IMG/VR virus record: IMGVR_UViG_3300035670_001468
Span: 1-20,399 of that record
DNA from: a virus
Reading direction: 5' to 3' (one strand)
Length of the DNA: 20,399 bases
The position numbers were made by a program, and so were the translations under genes. This document shows, in pieces, positions 1,696-11,495 of this stretch; the first letter of the stretch is position 1; each line of letters begins with the position of its first letter. The notes beneath the pieces are model-generated. The model made no database searches. It had not been told where the DNA came from and saw only the letters and a program-made list of their open reading frames with translations.

Positions 1696-3414
1696 ATGAA
1701 ACCCGACTCCATCCGCGCACAGCTCATAGAACTCTGGCAACCTCGCACGCGCCGTGAGATTTTGGAATTTTGCCAGAATGAAATCTGGATGTCGGAGCGG
1801 TTCACGAATCGCCCAGGGCTTTATGATCCGACGTTTACAAGCTACCTGAAGCCGTGCCACGAATGGTTCGGAGATCCCGAAGTCCGCACAATCTCAGCGC
1901 CGAAAGGCGCCCAAATCGGATTCACGACGTTTCTAGCGAATGCTTTGATGTGGGCAATCTCAGAAGATCCCGGCCCCGCTTTGTTTCTCACGTCCACGTC
2001 GGACAACGCGCAAAGCTGGAGCGAGCGCGAATGGCTGCCGAGGTTGAACGACTGCAAACGCATCGCCGCTCTGATTCCAAAGAACCGGGACGCGATGAAG
2101 AAGATGGAGCAAGCGTTTCTTTCCATGACGGTAAAGCTTTCCGGCGCTCAATCTGAAAACAACCTCGCATCTCGCCCGATTCGTTACCTGCTGAATGACG
2201 AAGTGGACAAATGGCCGCACGGCTTCCTAGGCATTGCAGAGGCTCGCACGCTTAGCTATCGCGGCGTAGATAAGATCGTGCGCGGATCCACTTGCACGAC
2301 CGAGGAAGGGCCAATCTGGATGAGCTGGATCAACAGCACTCAGCACCTTTGGAATGTCGAATGTCCCGTCTGCAAAGCTCCGCAGGTTTTCGACTTTTTC
2401 AAGTCGGTCAAATGGTCAAGCGATCACAAAGACGCCAAAGGCAACTGGAACATCGAAGCCGTTCGCCAGTCGGCCTATGGTGTCTGCATTGTGAACGGGT
2501 GCGAGTTTTCAAGCTCACAGCGAAACGAAATGGTCAGGGCGGGCCAACCAGTCGCAACGAATCCTTTCGCGTCTCCGCAAGACAAAGGCATTCACCTTCC
2601 CTCGCTGCTTTCACCGTTCCTTTCGTTTGGAGACTTGGCCGCGCTTTGGCTACAGAAAAAGAACACGCTGGCGGGCAAGCAGGATTTCTACAACCAGTAT
2701 CTCGGCCTCCCATGGAGCCATGAAGAATACAGCGTGAGCGAAGAGAAAGTCAGAGCCTGCCGCGCCATCGGTGAAAACTACTATCTACTTGGCGAATGCC
2801 CGATTGATCCTGTTGACGTAACGCTAAGCGCAGACGTTGGCGAAAAAGCAACGCACTGGACGGTTGAGGCGACAGGGCATGACGGGCAGTGCTACGTCAT
2901 TGATTACGGAATGGTTCTAGCCGTGGAGGACTTGCTTTCGATCATCCGCAAGGACTACCCGATTAAAGGCAGCGAGAAGCGCGTTAGAATCACATCTGGC
3001 GTAGTTGACTCCGGTTATGCAACGGAGCGCGTCTATCGTGCCTGCGCGAACTCTGGCGGGCGATTGTGGCCTATTAAGGGATCAAGCGCCGAGTTTGGAA
3101 AGCCCGTTGATGCTGCGAGAATCCCGACATGGCCGACGTTGCTTCTCTATACCTACGTCGATTTCTTCCACAAAGTCGCGCTCTACATTGACGCCATCGC
3201 CCGCCGCTCGTCGCCGCTTTGGTGGATTCCCGCGAACGTAGGCAACGACTTCATCGAAGGCCACTGCGGGCAGGAATTGAAATCGAAGCAGACCGCCGCA
3301 CGCTCAATCAAATTCTGGAAGCCGGTCGCAAACGACCACTATGGCGACTGCTCGAAAGGACATCGCATCATCCGCGATGTCCGCTCGCAGTTTTACGGAT
3401 TCGGGAATACCTAA
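1696..3414 (+). CDS. Phage terminase large subunit, GpA family
   Basis: The 572-residue ATPase-nuclease translocates DNA into the prohead and cuts it. The N-terminal ATPase has a deviant Walker A (APKGAQIGFTT, 68-78, without the usual GK[ST]) and a clear Walker B (IRYLLNDEVD, 162-171), followed by a STCTTEEGPIW coupling segment (198-208). A zinc-ribbon-like set C223-C226 and C264-C269 follows, as in GpA relatives. The C-terminal nuclease offers acidic residues at D380 (SADVGEK), D438 (VVDSGYA) and D547/D551 (NDHYGDC). The frame is open upstream to 1423, but ATG at 1696 gives the expected N-terminus and avoids the upstream gene. Length matches the family (about 550-650). Confidence in the family is high. 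Confidence 0.93.
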   Translation: MKPDSIRAQLIELWQPRTRREILEFCQNEIWMSERFTNRPGLYDPTFTSYLKPCHEWFGDPEVRTISAPKGAQIGFTTFLANALMWAISEDPGPALFLTSTSDNAQSWSEREWLPRLNDCKRIAALIPKNRDAMKKMEQAFLSMTVKLSGAQSENNLASRPIRYLLNDEVDKWPHGFLGIAEARTLSYRGVDKIVRGSTCTTEEGPIWMSWINSTQHLWNVECPVCKAPQVFDFFKSVKWSSDHKDAKGNWNIEAVRQSAYGVCIVNGCEFSSSQRNEMVRAGQPVATNPFASPQDKGIHLPSLLSPFLSFGDLAALWLQKKNTLAGKQDFYNQYLGLPWSHEEYSVSEEKVRACRAIGENYYLLGECPIDPVDVTLSADVGEKATHWTVEATGHDGQCYVIDYGMVLAVEDLLSIIRKDYPIKGSEKRVRITSGVVDSGYATERVYRACANSGGRLWPIKGSSAEFGKPVDAARIPTWPTLLLYTYVDFFHKVALYIDAIARRSSPLWWIPANVGNDFIEGHCGQELKSKQTAARSIKFWKPVANDHYGDCSKGHRIIRDVRSQFYGFGNT

Positions 3415-3420
3415 CACACG

Positions 3421-3606
3421 ATGAAAACAAAACACGACAAAGACGAACTATTTGAACGGCTTGTGCTTATGGTAGATGTTTTCGCCTCTTGCATAGAGAC
3501 TGAAACGCTGCCAACTCACGGCAGCCCTTGTCACCGTATGGCAAGGAAAGCTGTAGATGAAAGCGGCATCGCGCCAAAGCGGAAAAGGCGCAAGCTCCCA
3601 AATTAA
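3421..3606 (+). CDS. Small hypothetical protein (61 aa)
   Basis: Six bases after the terminase stop, ATGAAAACA opens a 61-residue frame. The N-terminal half is helical and acidic/hydrophobic (DELFERLVLMVDVFASCI); the C-terminus is strongly basic (APKRKRRKLPN), possibly nucleic-acid binding. The family is not recognised. It is the first gene of the accessory island that separates the terminase from the connector gene. The start context matches its neighbours. Confidence 0.55.
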   Translation: MKTKHDKDELFERLVLMVDVFASCIETETLPTHGSPCHRMARKAVDESGIAPKRKRRKLPN

Positions 3607-3635
3607 GCGCCCACATCGGGCAAACTCAAAACACG

Positions 3636-3887
3636 TTGAAAACCAAAACGAAAAAGCCGGAGCTTGTGCCTGTAGTCACACAACGCCCGTGCGGGCCACC
3701 TGTTGAGCCTCTGACACCCCATCCGGCATTTACCCTGCCATGGATGCACCGCCTATGGGTGCATCTTTACACCGAGCACGCTTTGATCCTTACCCAGGAT
3801 GAGATTTCCCAGATCGTGCGAATTGTGCGTGAGGAGGATAAAAAAATGACTTCGCCATTTCAAAAATATGAAAACAAAAGATACTAA
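3636..3887 (+). CDS. Small hypothetical protein (83 aa, TTG start)
   Basis: The start proposed is TTG at 3636 (TTGAAAACC), chosen because the AAAAC context recurs at five other starts around it; no ATG lies near the frame's beginning. The protein has a basic N-terminus, a Pro-rich middle (residues 18-35), then a helical C-terminal half (LTQDEISQIVRIVREEDKK). No family is recognised. Its last 20 bases overlap the next gene, suggesting coupled translation. Coding status is likely but not certain. Confidence 0.45.
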   Translation: MKTKTKKPELVPVVTQRPCGPPVEPLTPHPAFTLPWMHRLWVHLYTEHALILTQDEISQIVRIVREEDKKMTSPFQKYENKRY

Positions 3888-4116
3888 TTGGTTAGTATGT
3901 GAGGAATGGCGCTGTCGATGGTGCGGCCCCGAATCTGAAGCTCTCCGCGCTCCCGATCCATTTAACGAAGGCGATACGCTCATTGCGTGCCCGAAGTGCC
4001 GCGAGCAAACGCTGCACACCTGCTGCGACGAGCAGGGATGCACAAAGCATGCGACTTGCGGAACGCCAACGCCAGACGGCTACCGCTGGACGTGCGGCAA
4101 TCACAAGCCAGCGTAA
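3868..4116 (+). CDS. Small zinc-ribbon-like protein (82 aa)
   Basis: The 82-residue product has nine cysteines in zinc-ribbon spacing: C16-x2-C19 with C41-x2-C44 (CPKC), then C53-x4-C58, C64 and C76-x2-H79. This suggests two zinc knuckles or one ribbon plus a second site, so nucleic-acid or protein binding is possible. The start is ATGAAAACA at 3868, inside the 3' end of the upstream gene. No exact family is recognised. It is part of the run of small accessory genes after the large terminase and is followed by a promoter at 4139-4167. Confidence 0.6.
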   Translation: MKTKDTNWLVCEEWRCRWCGPESEALRAPDPFNEGDTLIACPKCREQTLHTCCDEQGCTKHATCGTPTPDGYRWTCGNHKPA

Positions 4117-4138
4117 AACAAAAAAGTGCAAAATCCAC

Positions 4139-4167
4139 TTGATGTATCGGCGGAAGTGTGGAAATAT
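4139..4167 (+). promoter_or_regulatory. Sigma70-like promoter candidate
   Basis: TTGATG (4139-4144), a 17-base spacer, and AAATAT (4162-4167). An A-rich tract with AAAAAAGT (4119-4127 region) and AAAATCC lies upstream. The same layout occurs before the methyltransferase gene (7885-7913), including the upstream AAAAAAGT tract and CTTG, which supports both. Transcription would begin near 4174, about 23 bases before ATG 4197. Confidence 0.5.
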
Positions 4168-4190
4168 GGAGTCGCAACGCAACTCCACAC
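4156..4190 (+). repeat. Inverted repeat over the promoter -10 (operator or leader hairpin)
   Basis: GTGTGGA (4156-4162) is perfectly repeated in inverted form as TCCACAC (4184-4190). An alternative hairpin pairs GGAGT (4168-4172) with ACTCC (4182-4186). The left arm overlaps the spacer and first base of the -10 box, and the right arm lies in the predicted leader, so it could bind a regulator or fold in the mRNA. Confidence 0.35.
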
Positions 4191-4196
4191 GACACC

Positions 4197-4490
4197 ATGA
4201 AAAACATCAAATCAATCAAGACAGTTTCGGAATACCTTGCACTTGGCGGCATGGCAATCGGCATGCTGCTTGAGTCACCAGTGAAGGAAAGCGAAAAGGC
4301 GCTCGCGTTCAAAGCGGTCAAATTCAACGCATGCGGCAACCCTTACGATGGCATTGCATGGCTACCAAAGAGCCAGCTTGTCGAAGTGGAAAACGATTTC
4401 TACACGAACGAAGCGCCCGCCAAGATGCACATTTGCCCGACTTGGCTTTACAAGAAAAACTTCGCTGGTGGCGAAATTGAAGTGCTTTAA
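4197..4490 (+). CDS. Hypothetical protein (97 aa)
   Basis: ATG at 4197 (ATGAAAAAC) was chosen over an in-frame GTG at 4158 because 4158 would lie inside the promoter. The product has a short N-terminal helix with a hydrophobic run (YLALGGMAIGMLLES, residues 13-27) and a mixed, aromatic C-terminal part. It has no recognised domain. It has its own promoter, so it may be expressed separately from the structural genes, and the next gene starts two bases after its stop. Confidence 0.6.
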   Translation: MKNIKSIKTVSEYLALGGMAIGMLLESPVKESEKALAFKAVKFNACGNPYDGIAWLPKSQLVEVENDFYTNEAPAKMHICPTWLYKKNFAGGEIEVL

Positions 4491-4492
4491 GT

Positions 4493-4720
4493 ATGCCGCG
4501 AATCCATCAAGACTTTACCGCACAAACTATTAAATGGTTTGTGCGCGGCACTAAACTAGACGGCACTAAATGGGAGAGCGGGCATAAGCACGCAACCCGC
4601 GAAGCCGCTGAATCGGAAATCAGCGAATGGGGGCCAGAGATGGGAACAATGAAGATCATGAAGGAAGTAATAATCCCTTGCCATCCGCCGCAAGTGGTCA
4701 ATTATCCCGCCAGTAAATAG
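4493..4720 (+). CDS. Small hypothetical protein (75 aa)
   Basis: ATG at 4493 follows the upstream stop by two bases. The 75-residue product has an N-terminal strand-rich part (TAQTIKWFVRGTKLDGTKWES) followed by a helix with conserved-looking basic and acidic residues (HATREAAESEISEWG), a layout seen in small single-domain phage proteins. No family is recognised. Its last 40 bases contain the promoter candidate for the structured RNA region, and the stop codon directly abuts the first helix of that region. Confidence 0.55.
   Translation: MPRIHQDFTAQTIKWFVRGTKLDGTKWESGHKHATREAAESEISEWGPEMGTMKIMKEVIIPCHPPQVVNYPASK
4678..4706 (+). promoter_or_regulatory. Promoter candidate for the structured RNA region
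   Basis: TTGCCA (4678-4683), a 17-base spacer, then ATTATC (4701-4706). The preceding GAAGTAATAATCC resembles the AAGT..AAAATCC tract before the promoter at 4139. Transcription would start near 4713, just before the first helix at 4720. The -10 is a poor match, so this is tentative. Confidence 0.35.
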
Positions 4721-4761
4721 GTTTGCTCTGTGCTAGGAGCCATCCGACCCACAGGCAAACC
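4720..4761 (+). repeat. Inverted repeat, helix 1 of the structured region
   Basis: GGTTTGC (4720-4726), one unpaired T, CTGTG (4728-4732) pair perfectly with CACAGGCAAACC (4750-4761). The loop (4733-4749) carries CTAG, which could pair with the CTAG in the loop of the next hairpin (4778-4781); GTGCTAG at 4730-4736 and CTAGCAC at 4778-4784 are fully complementary. Confidence 0.7.
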
Positions 4762-4765
4762 CTCT

Positions 4766-4795
4766 GAGGCCGACTTTCTAGCACGAGTCGGCCTC
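4766..4795 (+). repeat. Inverted repeat, helix 2 of the structured region
   Basis: GAGGCCGACT (4766-4775) and AGTCGGCCTC (4786-4795) form ten Watson-Crick pairs around a ten-base loop. It is followed by TTTGCTTGCCGTTTT. It could act as a weak terminator for upstream genes, but the broken T-run and the many further helices favour a structural element. Confidence 0.7.
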
Positions 4796-4857
4796 TTTGC
4801 TTGCCGTTTTAGAGTCAATACTCGATCCTGAAAAAGTCGGTCACTTGGCGAAGGCAT

Positions 4858-4967
4858 GAGAGCAGAGTTCAGCGGAAAATTGCAGGTCACTCCGACACCA
4901 AAGGACGAACCGAATAGGCCGCACGCAAACCACGAAAGTTGAAGTTTGCCCGCTGAATTCTGCTCTC
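4858..4967 (+). repeat. 18-bp inverted repeat with internal GNRA hairpin
   Basis: GAGAGCAGAGTTCAGCGG (4858-4875) pairs with CCGCTGAATTCTGCTCTC (4950-4967): 17 Watson-Crick pairs plus one G-T at 4867/4958. The 74-base interior carries GCAAAC (4925-4930) pairing with GTTTGC (4944-4949) around an ACGAAAGT hairpin (GAAA loop, 4934-4937). The right arm is separated by one base from the next helix, as in a coaxial stack. Confidence 0.8.
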
Positions 4968-4968
4968 C

Positions 4969-5061
4969 GAAGGTTGAATTGAGCGCGTGGTGTAATGTGG
5001 CACACTCGGCGCATAGTCGAGGAGATGCAGGTTCAAATCCTGCCCGCTCAATTCAGCCTTC
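4969..5061 (+). repeat. 17-bp inverted repeat extending the tRNA-like acceptor stem
   Basis: GAAGGTTGAATTGAGCG (4969-4985) pairs with CGCTCAATTCAGCCTTC (5045-5061): 16 Watson-Crick pairs plus one G-T at 4974/5056. The inner six pairs are the acceptor stem of the tRNA-like element; the helix simply continues 11 pairs beyond the normal tRNA ends. Confidence 0.8.
4980..5051 (+). tRNA. tRNA-like element, anticodon CAT, atypical
   Basis: The element has an acceptor stem of six pairs (4980-4985 with 5045-5050) and one C-C mismatch (4986/5044). The D-arm contains TGGTGTAAT and GG, with a 3-4 bp stem. The anticodon stem is CTCGG (5005-5009) with TCGAG (5017-5021), and the seven-base loop has CAT at 5012-5014. 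A five-base variable region and a perfect T-arm follow: GCAGG, TTCAAAT, CCTGC (5027-5043). CAT would read as Met, or Ile if modified. Two faults are visible: position 33 is G instead of U, and no CCA is encoded. It may be a functional phage tRNA, a decayed one, or a tRNA mimic inside a larger RNA. Confidence 0.6.
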
Positions 5062-5126
5062 AAATCGGCGCACGGTGGACCGCAGAATCAGCCGTGCAAA
5101 AGTCGCTAGGTTCACGCCTAGGGCTG

Positions 5127-5182
5127 CGTTAAACTCGTTTGATCCGTCTTTACTGAGACAGCCGAACGGAGAGAGTTTAACG
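5127..5182 (+). repeat. Nested inverted repeat in the structured region
   Basis: CGTTAAACTC (5127-5136) is perfectly inverted as GAGTTTAACG (5173-5182). Inside it, TCCGT (5143-5147) pairs with ACGGA (5166-5170). This gives a long stem with an internal loop and an 18-base terminal loop. Confidence 0.7.
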
Positions 5183-5235
5183 GCTTGAAAACGTCAAAGC
5201 GATGATCCTGATTCCTGACGGAACAAATTACGCTT

Positions 5236-5261
5236 AGCAGTATCCCAGCAATGGGACTGCT
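5236..5261 (+). repeat. GNRA-capped hairpin near the 3' end of the structured region
   Basis: AGCAG (5236-5240) pairs with CTGCT (5257-5261) and TCCCA (5243-5247) with TGGGA (5252-5256), with a two-base TA bulge on the left strand and a GCAA tetraloop. GC at 5232-5233 and 5264-5265 can add two outer pairs. Only three T follow, so it is unlikely to be a simple terminator. Confidence 0.7.
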
Positions 5262-5318
5262 TTGCTCCGAAGCCTTCAAACCTTCTGGAACATCATTTAA
5301 TCAAACCAAACAAAAAAC

Positions 5319-5948
5319 ATGAACACGAAACTAAAAGCACTGTTTGCCAAAATCTTAGAAAAGGACGCCTTAATGGCTGAAATCATTGAATGGCATGAAG
5401 ACAATTTCAAGATTCCTTCATTGCATCAATTTTACGGGTGCGCTTCAACAGATTTCATCGCTCAATACCTCGGGGCCACTGGTGACAATGATTGGTTATA
5501 TGAAAAGATGTTCATCGGCAAAAGCCCGAAAGGAGAGCGCGAAAGGCAAAAGCATTTTTTAGCCATCGTTGATTCAATTATTGAGCAGGGCGAAATCATC
5601 CGCGAGGAAGATGGGCCATCTGAACAAGTCGCACACGCTCTCGCAATGGAGGCGGCGGCAGATATTTGGAAAAGCGTTCCAAAGTCTGAATGGGTTGAGC
5701 GTTTAGGATATGAAGAAGCGGCAAAAGGGCTGTTTGAATGCGGCGGCAATGTCAGTGAAGATCTTTTAACCCTCGATTGCATCGAATCGTCAATAACCGG
5801 AGAGTCGAACGAATACTTGGCAACCGTTCAATCTGGTAGCCTAGGCGAGCATATCACATGCAGAGGCGAAGGACCGATTGGGGCCGTGGTCCGATGCTTG
5901 GAGGTAATCACGCATCAAAAAAGGTATCGCGCACAAGCTCACGGGTAG
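5319..5948 (+). CDS. Hypothetical acidic protein (209 aa)
   Basis: The ATG at 5319 follows an A-rich, Shine-Dalgarno-free leader. The product is acidic, largely helical and cytoplasmic, with no membrane segment. It includes KMFIGKSPKGERERQKHFLAI (49 onward, continuing as a helix) and a central EEAAKGLFECGGNVSEDLL segment. I do not recognise the family. It is the last gene of the accessory island and lies between the structured RNA and the head genes; base usage looks somewhat more AT-rich than the structural genes, in keeping with an accessory gene. The following gap (5949-5970) holds only the TTGACA motif of the next gene. Confidence 0.65.
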   Translation: MNTKLKALFAKILEKDALMAEIIEWHEDNFKIPSLHQFYGCASTDFIAQYLGATGDNDWLYEKMFIGKSPKGERERQKHFLAIVDSIIEQGEIIREEDGPSEQVAHALAMEAAADIWKSVPKSEWVERLGYEEAAKGLFECGGNVSEDLLTLDCIESSITGESNEYLATVQSGSLGEHITCRGEGPIGAVVRCLEVITHQKRYRAQAHG

Positions 5949-5951
5949 CAT

Positions 5952-9867: not shown

Positions 9868-11001
9868 ATGGCTAATACTCTTTCCAATCTTATCCCAGAC
9901 GTTTACACCGCTCTGGACATCGTGTCCCGCGAACTCGTCGGCGCTTTGCCCGGCGTTACCCGTGATGCCAACGCCGACCGCATCGCCTCTAACCAGACCA
10001 TCCGTGTTGCGCAGACTCCGACAAACACCACCTCGGCATACACTCCAGCCATGGCAGTGCCTTCCGCAGTCGATCAGACCATTGCCAATGCTTCCCTCAC
10101 CTTGTCGAAAAACAAGTATGCCGCGTTCAGTTGGACCGGCGAGGAAGTTTATGCGATGAATCAAGGCCCCGGCTTTCTCACCATCCGCCAGAACCAAATC
10201 GCCCAGGCTTTCCGCGCTCTGGTCAACGAAATGGAGAACGATGTGTGTGATGCACTGGCCCAGGGCGCTTCCCGCGCTTACGGCACCGCAGGCACCACGC
10301 CATTCGCTTCCACGCTTGCTGATCCCGCCCAGGTTCGCAAGATTCTGGACGACAACGGCGCTCCGCTCTCCGGCCGTTCTTTGGTCATCAACACCACCGC
10401 AGGCGCTGCACTTCGCACACTGGGTCAGTTGACCAAAGCGAACGAAGCTGGAACCGCCATGACGCTGCGTGACGGCGAACTGCTCAACCTTCACGGCTTC
10501 TCTGTCCGTGAGTCTGCGCAGATCAACAACGCAACGGCTGGCACCGGCTCCGGTTACCTTATCAACGAAGCCTCTGGCTACGCAGTCGGCGCAACCTCGC
10601 TGACTCTCGACACTGGCACCGGCACCATCCTCGCGGGTGATGTCATCACCATCGGCTCTCACAAGTATGTCGTGAAAACGGCGCTTGCTGCGAACGTCGT
10701 GGTGATTCAGGAGCCGGGCCTTGTGGCGGCAGTAGCCAACAATGCAGAAGTCACGGTCAACGCTACCAGCGCCCGTAACATCGCATTCAGCTCTGACGCA
10801 ATCGTTCTTGCCACCCGCCTGCCGATCTTCCCGTCCGAAGGCGACATGGCAATCGACAACGAGGTTGTCACCGATCCGCGCACCGGCATCAGCTTCGACC
10901 TCCGCGTCTATCCTGGCGACGGCATGGTGCTTTATCGCATCCACGCTCTCTGGGGCTGGCAGGTTCTCAAGTCCGCACACGCTGCCGTGCTTCTCGGTTA
11001 G
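9868..11001 (+). CDS. Major capsid protein, P22-coat-like
   Basis: The 377-residue product begins MANTLSNLIPDVYTALDIVS with RELVGALPGVTRD after it, the N-arm pattern of P22-type coat proteins. The HK97-fold core is interrupted at about residues 228-300 by a beta-rich insert (GATSLTLDTGTGTILAGD, then ITIGSHKYVV), reminiscent of the P22 coat I-domain. The core resumes at NIAFSSDAIVLATRLP (304-319). The protein is somewhat shorter than P22 gp5 (430). The coding strand has the strongest codon bias of the window (C/G at third positions), fitting high expression. It follows the protease/scaffold gene and ends in a strong terminator. The major capsid call is firm; the exact family is from recall. 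Confidence 0.88.
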   Translation: MANTLSNLIPDVYTALDIVSRELVGALPGVTRDANADRIASNQTIRVAQTPTNTTSAYTPAMAVPSAVDQTIANASLTLSKNKYAAFSWTGEEVYAMNQGPGFLTIRQNQIAQAFRALVNEMENDVCDALAQGASRAYGTAGTTPFASTLADPAQVRKILDDNGAPLSGRSLVINTTAGAALRTLGQLTKANEAGTAMTLRDGELLNLHGFSVRESAQINNATAGTGSGYLINEASGYAVGATSLTLDTGTGTILAGDVITIGSHKYVVKTALAANVVVIQEPGLVAAVANNAEVTVNATSARNIAFSSDAIVLATRLPIFPSEGDMAIDNEVVTDPRTGISFDLRVYPGDGMVLYRIHALWGWQVLKSAHAAVLLG

Positions 11002-11033
11002 TCCAAAGCCGGGAGCGTCCCGCGTGACTAATC

Positions 11034-11066
11034 GCCCGCCCTTGTGCAAACGAGGGCGGGCTTTTT
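11034..11066 (+). terminator. Strong rho-independent terminator after the capsid gene
   Basis: GCCCGCCCT (11034-11042) pairs with AGGGCGGGC (11053-11061); T-G, G-C and T-A pairs extend the stem to twelve pairs closed by a GCAA loop (11046-11049). TTTTT follows at 11062-11066. It lies 33 bases after the capsid stop and should separate the head genes from the downstream connector and tail genes. Confidence 0.88.
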
Positions 11067-11075
11067 CTTGCTTGT

Positions 11076-11081
11076 TTGACA
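11076..11081 (+). promoter_or_regulatory. TTGACA motif between two terminators
   Basis: This TTGACA has no credible start 19-22 bases downstream. It is followed after 17 bases by TTCATG, a poor -10, so it may be the -35 of a promoter restarting transcription after the capsid terminator. TGACAAC, AGT, GTTGTTCA (11085-11102) just after it is a near-palindrome that could be an operator. Confidence 0.3.
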
Positions 11082-11112
11082 CGCTGACAACAGTGTTGTT
11101 CATGTGGCATTG

Positions 11113-11153
11113 CCGCCGCCCGCGTGTCGTGTCGCGGGCGGCGGTTTCTTTTT
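11113..11153 (+). terminator. Second GC-rich hairpin with T-run, abutting the next start codon
   Basis: CCGCCGCCCGCG (11113-11124) and CGCGGGCGGCGG (11133-11144) form twelve GC pairs around an eight-base loop, followed by TTTCTTTTT (11145-11153). The next ATG is at 11157, three bases after the T-run. It has the form of an intrinsic terminator and could attenuate the tail operon. Confidence 0.75.
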
Positions 11154-11156
11154 ACC

Positions 11157-11495
11157 ATGAAGGCTCTACTCTCACAGTCCGCAAAACACGCGCTTGATTT
11201 ACTCATGCGAGCACATCCCGGCGTCGTCACAATTGCAGGCACGCAATACAAATGCGCCGCCGTTGTTTCTCGAGGCTCTGTTGAGGACGCCAAAGGAGGA
11301 TTCAAGCAGGTTAAGACCGCCGCTTTCCATCTGCCATACAGCGCGATTGACGAGGCAACGCTGATTGCGCTCGGTAAAAACAAACGGCTTACGATCACGC
11401 ACGACGCTGACTTATTCCGCATTTCATCGGATGGCGTCAAGCCAGATCCGCTAAAGACGCGATGGATCATCCGCGCTGAACAGGCCGTAAATTGA
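11157..11495 (+). CDS. Possible head-tail joining protein (112 aa)
   Basis: ATG 11157 was chosen over the upstream frame start at 11124, which lies inside the terminator stem. The 112-residue product has an N-terminal helix (LLSQSAKHALDLLMRAHPG) followed by a beta-rich body (VVTIAGTQYKCAAVVSRG, RLTITHDADLFRISS). This outline and its place right after the capsid gene resemble lambda FII-type head-tail joining proteins, but I see no diagnostic motif. No Shine-Dalgarno is present; the start follows a terminator-like hairpin directly. Confidence 0.5.
   Translation: MKALLSQSAKHALDLLMRAHPGVVTIAGTQYKCAAVVSRGSVEDAKGGFKQVKTAAFHLPYSAIDEATLIALGKNKRLTITHDADLFRISSDGVKPDPLKTRWIIRAEQAVN

Follow-up and report, generated by a model that had tools for sequence, protein, structure and literature searches.

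GOLLD and ROOL are elaborate phage RNAs that sit together with tRNAs. Both form RNA nanocages (PMC12286853). The 3' region of GOLLD is universally conserved and some members hold a tRNA in a linker region, while ROOL is a phage or prophage RNA of about 600 nt that is often located near tRNAs, one ROOL of 659 nt having been described (PMC12286853). We compared these RNAs with a structured region in a viral DNA of 20,399 nucleotides (IMG/VR record IMGVR_UViG_3300035670_001468; this whole stretch is called the window). A sequence-only reading had interpreted the region as one RNA of about 600 nt that belongs to GOLLD or ROOL, is distantly related to them or represents a new class.

Full Rfam scans (at gathering cut-offs and at E ≤ 10) returned only tRNA as significant. 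Of the four families named in that reading, none was found by model searches: neither GOLLD nor ROOL matched the window at E ≤ 10, direct searches with lax filters included, and neither HEARO nor OLE was listed in the full Rfam scan of the window. The positive control for these searches was ROOL only, whose model detects a known carrier, the L. salivarius plasmid, at 132 bits. Like GOLLD (RF02032), of which some members carry a tRNA in the linker (PMC12286853), the window RNA is large and ornate and appears to have a tRNA built in, but it has no match to the 416-position GOLLD model, and its tRNA is fused via a continuous 17-bp acceptor stem, with a paralogous arm adjoining. It resembles ROOL (RF03087) as a phage RNA of about 600 nt, often near tRNAs (PMC12286853), but gives no match where the plasmid scores 132 bits. 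We have thus not filed it as a GOLLD or ROOL member, because the test with sequence-structure models failed despite the shared tRNA association. A true but very diverged member that the models missed is highly improbable: the similar size, the phage location and the tRNAs that sometimes lie in the GOLLD linker (PMC12286853) would fit, yet searches confined to small spaces gave no match at E ≤ 10, despite the universally conserved 3' region of GOLLD.

Two structured blocks between terminase and portal

Between the ORF ending at 4720 and the ORF starting at 5319 (4721-5318), we found no convincing gene. Two small ORFs overlap this interval, an 80-aa TTG-start ORF on the + strand and a 62-aa ORF on the - strand, both without a supporting homologue, and the earlier claim of about 600 bases free of protein genes was borne out. 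The features discussed below are the following:

3415-5950, no strand assigned: accessory slot, from the terminase to the small gene before the portal (comparison with related phages)
4678-4705, +: promoter-like, sigma70-like site, TTGCCA-16-AATTAT (consensus scan)
4713-4800, +: leader RNA module with hairpins P2 and P4 (z, pair probabilities)
4720-4732/4750-4761, +: hairpin P2 with inner GGA/TCC (pair probabilities)
4729-4738, +: strand complementary to the P4 loop, TGTGCTAGGA with TTCTAGCACG (10 bp including G-U)
4766-4776/4785-4795, +: terminator-like hairpin P4 (pair probabilities)
4850-5277, +: core RNA domain, closed by GAAGGC/GCCTTC at 4850-4855/5272-5277 (closing helix probability 0.96)
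4858-4968, +: arm A, paralogue of arm B, with an 18-bp stem, a side arm and a T-arm-like hairpin at 4925-4930/4944-4949 (repeats, pair probabilities, A/B alignment)
4969-5061, +: arm B, a degenerate tRNA with a CAT anticodon and the acceptor extended to 17 bp (ARAGORN, Rfam, pair probability)
5021-5044, +: variable loop plus T arm (24 nt), matched exactly at G001 33818-33841 in a tRNA-like element of the sister phage
5065-5270, +: remaining arms C to G (z -3.1; helix probabilities 0.34-0.98)
5070-5097, +: arm C
5101-5125, +: arm D
5127-5182, +: arm E
5212-5223, +: arm F
5236-5261, +: arm G, with a GCAA loop
5319-5948, +: 209-aa ORF without homologue

The inverted repeats of 18, 17, 12, 10 and 10 bp claimed for this region were all located, at 4858-4875/4950-4967 (18 nt, 94%), 4969-4985/5045-5061 (17 nt, 94%), 4766-4775/4786-4795 (10 nt, 100%) and 5127-5136/5173-5182 (10 nt, 100%), the "12-bp" repeat being a 7+5 bp hairpin at 4720-4761. 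Of two proposed GNRA loops, GCAA at 5248-5251 is secure and GAAA in arm A is weak. The longest stem with G-U pairs allowed is 18, and 17 was reached in 1 of 60 shuffles; the folding energies make a stronger case than stem length by itself. On the + strand, 4713-5318 folds with -232 kcal/mol versus -178 ± 7 in dinucleotide shuffles (z -8.3), and the core by itself has a z of about -7 to -8. When the contig was divided into 430-nt tiles, the tile over the core was the most extreme of 47, and the core at its exact bounds was even more extreme than this overlapping tile. No other part of the contig is as over-structured as the core and the leader. A lesser excess of structure is seen in tiles 3441-3870 and 10751-11180. 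The latter contains strong simple hairpins; between two head genes lie two very strong GC hairpins (11034-11061 and 11113-11144), perfect or nearly so and with T-rich tails, which are probably terminators around the gene junction.

By segment, z is -7.4 for arm A, -7.1 for arm B and -6.2 to -6.8 for the leader, and the linker at 4800-4849 is not unusually structured (z -0.3). Pair probabilities resolve the leader hairpins at 4720-4761 and 4766-4795 and a closed, multi-armed core of 428 nt that comprises arms A and B plus five smaller hairpins. We therefore describe two blocks, with the unstructured linker between them, rather than one. The proposed single RNA of 600 nt corresponds to a real structured region, for which a small leader RNA that is terminated, plus a separate core, is the better reading. 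The sequence just upstream, 4667-4712, is promoter-like rather than RNA.

A putative leader RNA shared with a sister phage

We compared the leader to that of the sister phage IMGVR_UViG_3300020044_008626, whose portal is 95% identical. A consensus scan gave identical promoter hexamers and spacing at 4678 and at position 3121 of the sister locus (L002), and the 43-nt block that encloses the promoter (4669-4711) is 93% identical to L002 3112-3154, which occupies the corresponding place in the gene order. The sister sequence that follows (L002 3155-3256, z -6.5) has the same architecture in a different sequence, with a first hairpin carrying an inner GGA/TCC, followed by a terminator-like one whose U tract is good; in the window, the leader hairpins have pair probabilities of 0.98-0.99 and the U tract of P4 is imperfect (TTTGCTT). 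The two leaders were compared by hand because MAFFT misregisters their P4 arms. In both phages, the first hairpin carries, at the same position of its 5' strand, a complement to the terminator loop, the sister counterpart being TGAGTGGA/TCCACTCA (8 bp). Loop shuffles, searched over the whole upstream segment, matched the observed pairing in 58-206 of 20,000 cases for the window and in 203-464 of 20,000 for L002 (each match p about 0.003-0.02), and chance is unlikely because both matches coincide in position. As promoter and fold are the same and the bases differ, the loop pairing covaries in this one relative. It competes with part of the first hairpin and may form a switch or a loop-loop contact. 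The sister leader appears to be an RNA of about 100 nt that stands on its own; beyond its terminator, L002 3257-3480 is weakly structured (z -2.1) and has no similarity to the core. A pattern search with the leader promoter matched the sister only, and the zero matches of a second, looser leader pattern carry no weight, as its gap range excluded the sister's own 10 nt.

These features raise the alternative that the whole stretch is a 5' untranslated region that controls the 5319 ORF via loop pairing and the terminator hairpin. The ORF lies on the same strand with about 40 nt from the core to its start codon, and the terminator-like hairpin has a competing pairing upstream, but the sister keeps the leader without a 5319-like gene after it, a 428-nt core with tRNA-like arms would be excessive for such a role and the ORF has no homologue. 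We consider cis control quite unlikely. The 5319 ORF had no match in Pfam, PHROG, NCBIfam (above cut-off), PADLOC, phage or IMG/VR searches, and its single-sequence structure model was unusable (pLDDT 42); it is possibly a cis target or unrelated cargo. No clear terminator was seen after the core towards this ORF.

The tRNA-like arms of the core

A tRNA-like element had been noticed in the region, and both ARAGORN and Rfam indeed call a tRNA at 4979-5052, within arm B. ARAGORN assigns it to Met (CAT). The Rfam tRNA model (RF00005) scores the arm at 34.1 bits, above its gathering score of 29 for the cloverleaf, and gives 45-71 bits for real tRNAs of a plasmid array. Arm B shares with tRNA the cloverleaf, a T arm of GCAGG-TTCAAAT-CCTGC and CAT in the anticodon position, but scores 34 bits only, and its acceptor stem is longer by 10 pairs, running unbroken to 17 bp (4969-4985/5045-5061, probability 1.00) without a free CCA end. 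Its anticodon loop, CGCATAG, has a G at position 33, so that the U33 of a working tRNA is missing along with the free acceptor end. A mature, charged tRNA does not look like this. There is also a weak resemblance to skipping-rope RNA (RF02924) over the outer stem and T-arm-like hairpin of arm B, but at 18.1 bits versus a cut-off of 36.7 (E 0.14-0.47), compatible with a shared tRNA-like shape or with chance.

Arm A, next to arm B, is its paralogue. Their local alignment score was reached by 1 of 300 and 0 of 200 shuffles, and the two stems align end to end without gaps over 18 pairs, among which 11 are unchanged, four show double compensatory changes, two are G-U changes and one is broken in B. 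This pattern suggests that pairing has been maintained, as judged from one duplication within one sequence. Strand-switch repair of DNA palindromes can also yield matched double changes without selection, but should have erased the G-U pairs still present in the stems. The proposal that pairing is kept at the RNA level thus gains support from the compensatory changes between the arms and from the compensation between the window and sister leaders.

The 24-nt block at 5021-5044 is held by only two IMG/VR contigs, the sister included (the window's own record possibly left out). The sister copy lies in a tRNA-like element near a helicase-like gene (named by eye). Common ancestry of the two copies is likely, although T arms are conserved in general. 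The sister element (L028:1433-1531, contig about 33750-33848) has TCA in the anticodon position, scores 36 bits with the Rfam tRNA model and has its D loop enlarged by about 30 nt, among them a GCAA-capped hairpin; it lies within a 105-aa ORF and is not called by ARAGORN. A 150-kb contig (IMGVR_UViG_3300022890_000014, L034:4578-4740) holds a pair of atypical tRNA-like genes, neither called by ARAGORN, one of which has the same 24-nt T-arm block. We rejected an att site at this block, as the shared 24-mer stops short of the tRNA 3' end. Arm E was likewise rejected as an integron attC, its GTTAAAC/GTTTAAC ends being in the wrong order for attC. Near the end of the core, 5265-5280 (CTCCGAAGCCTTCAAA) reads as if the left flank of arm B (4965-4972) had been joined to the right one (5055-5064), which may reflect an alternative pairing or how the core was built.

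An explanation in which the arms are debris of a decayed tRNA array, that is, tRNA genes acquired by the phage, duplicated and degenerating without present function, would account for arm B as a low-scoring tRNA without U33 and for arm A as its more diverged copy, and related phages carry other low-scoring tRNA-like elements (36 bits in the sister, 35 bits in L016). Decay should, however, break stems, yet 17 of the 18 aligned pairs still pair in both arms, both arms are 94% complementary over 17-18 nt, and the closing helix and the non-tRNA arms are over-structured too. We therefore regard debris as unlikely.

The accessory slot and a possible role of the core

The length and content of the slot vary among related phages. 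It measures about 690 bp in the sister, where the leader is present and the core is missing, about 60 nt in L005 and L006 (terminase 75% identical), which represent the empty site, and about 4.8 kb in L013 and L016, where it holds other cargo. In L016, a tRNA-like element with an undefined anticodon (2422-2494) is located in the slot directly before a Mom-like ORF (by eye). The core was found in one of the phages compared. This variation marks the slot as a hot spot for cargo and the core as accessory, in line with the claim that an accessory element interrupts the terminase-to-portal order. Within the slot, the noncoding segment 4110-4211 is 83% identical to L002 2791-2891, precedes different small genes in the two phages and looks like a shared promoter and 5' UTR (TTGATG-17-AAATAT, by eye). 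By portal, Akkermansia phage Moulinsart comes closest among named phages, and its 25% identity suggests a Verrucomicrobiota host.

Searches for homologues of the core were negative in distant blastn against phages and plasmids, where the plasmid matches and some phage matches are to the T arm only, and in IMG/VR with pseudo-translated patterns. Among 18 records of related phages, there was only the 24-nt T arm of the sister and chance-level 14-15-mers. Scans of genome contigs with portal and terminase profiles found no prophage. Structured tiles upstream of the same gene in L013 and L018 were rejected as relatives of the core, being simple repeat hairpins; at L013:6552-6642 and L018:4402-4490, repeated GACAATC-type inverted repeats fold into a highly stable hairpin ahead of the small gene that precedes the portal.

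It could be argued that the long palindromes act as DNA, as a recombination or integration hot spot or as the remnant of repeated palindrome-prone insertions. The slot does collect cargo, the stems are near-palindromic and 5265-5280 resembles the flanks of arm B joined together, but both long stems still contain G-U pairs, folding is stronger for the + strand (-249) than for the - strand (-240), the repeats do not bound cargo in other phages and no recombinase was recognized in the slot. A DNA element is thus improbable.

Taken together, the analysis supports an RNA in the terminase-portal accessory slot that is large, structured and probably noncoding and has a tRNA-like element embedded in it. 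We explain it best as a noncoding cassette of the accessory, moron-like kind in a tailed phage, with a core that acts as RNA, and assign this a probability of about one-half; that the RNA is a functional noncoding one has roughly even odds. In such a cassette, the promoter at 4678 would drive a short transcript, about 90 nt long and ending mostly at P4, and the imperfect U tract would allow some read-through into the core, which would fold into a stable RNA acting in trans. Its two tRNA-shaped arms with their acceptor ends sealed may offer tRNA-binding proteins or ribosomes a decoy or a scaffold. A decoy or scaffold rather than a decoding tRNA appears most likely because 17-18 bp stems replace the acceptor end and U33 is missing, although the decoy step taken alone is doubtful. 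A new class had also been proposed; such a class, drawn here from a single sequence, would arise from a tRNA gene that was duplicated, had its acceptor ends sealed into long stems and became a multi-armed mimic that, during infection, brings together or sequesters tRNA-binding factors, which we hold to be tentative and on balance unlikely.

The core is a compact form of 428 nt that can be made in vitro. If our reading is true, an unrelated phage RNA with a tRNA built in, duplicated and kept paired would be an independent case beside GOLLD and ROOL, and tRNA mimicry would be suggested as part of what such RNAs do.
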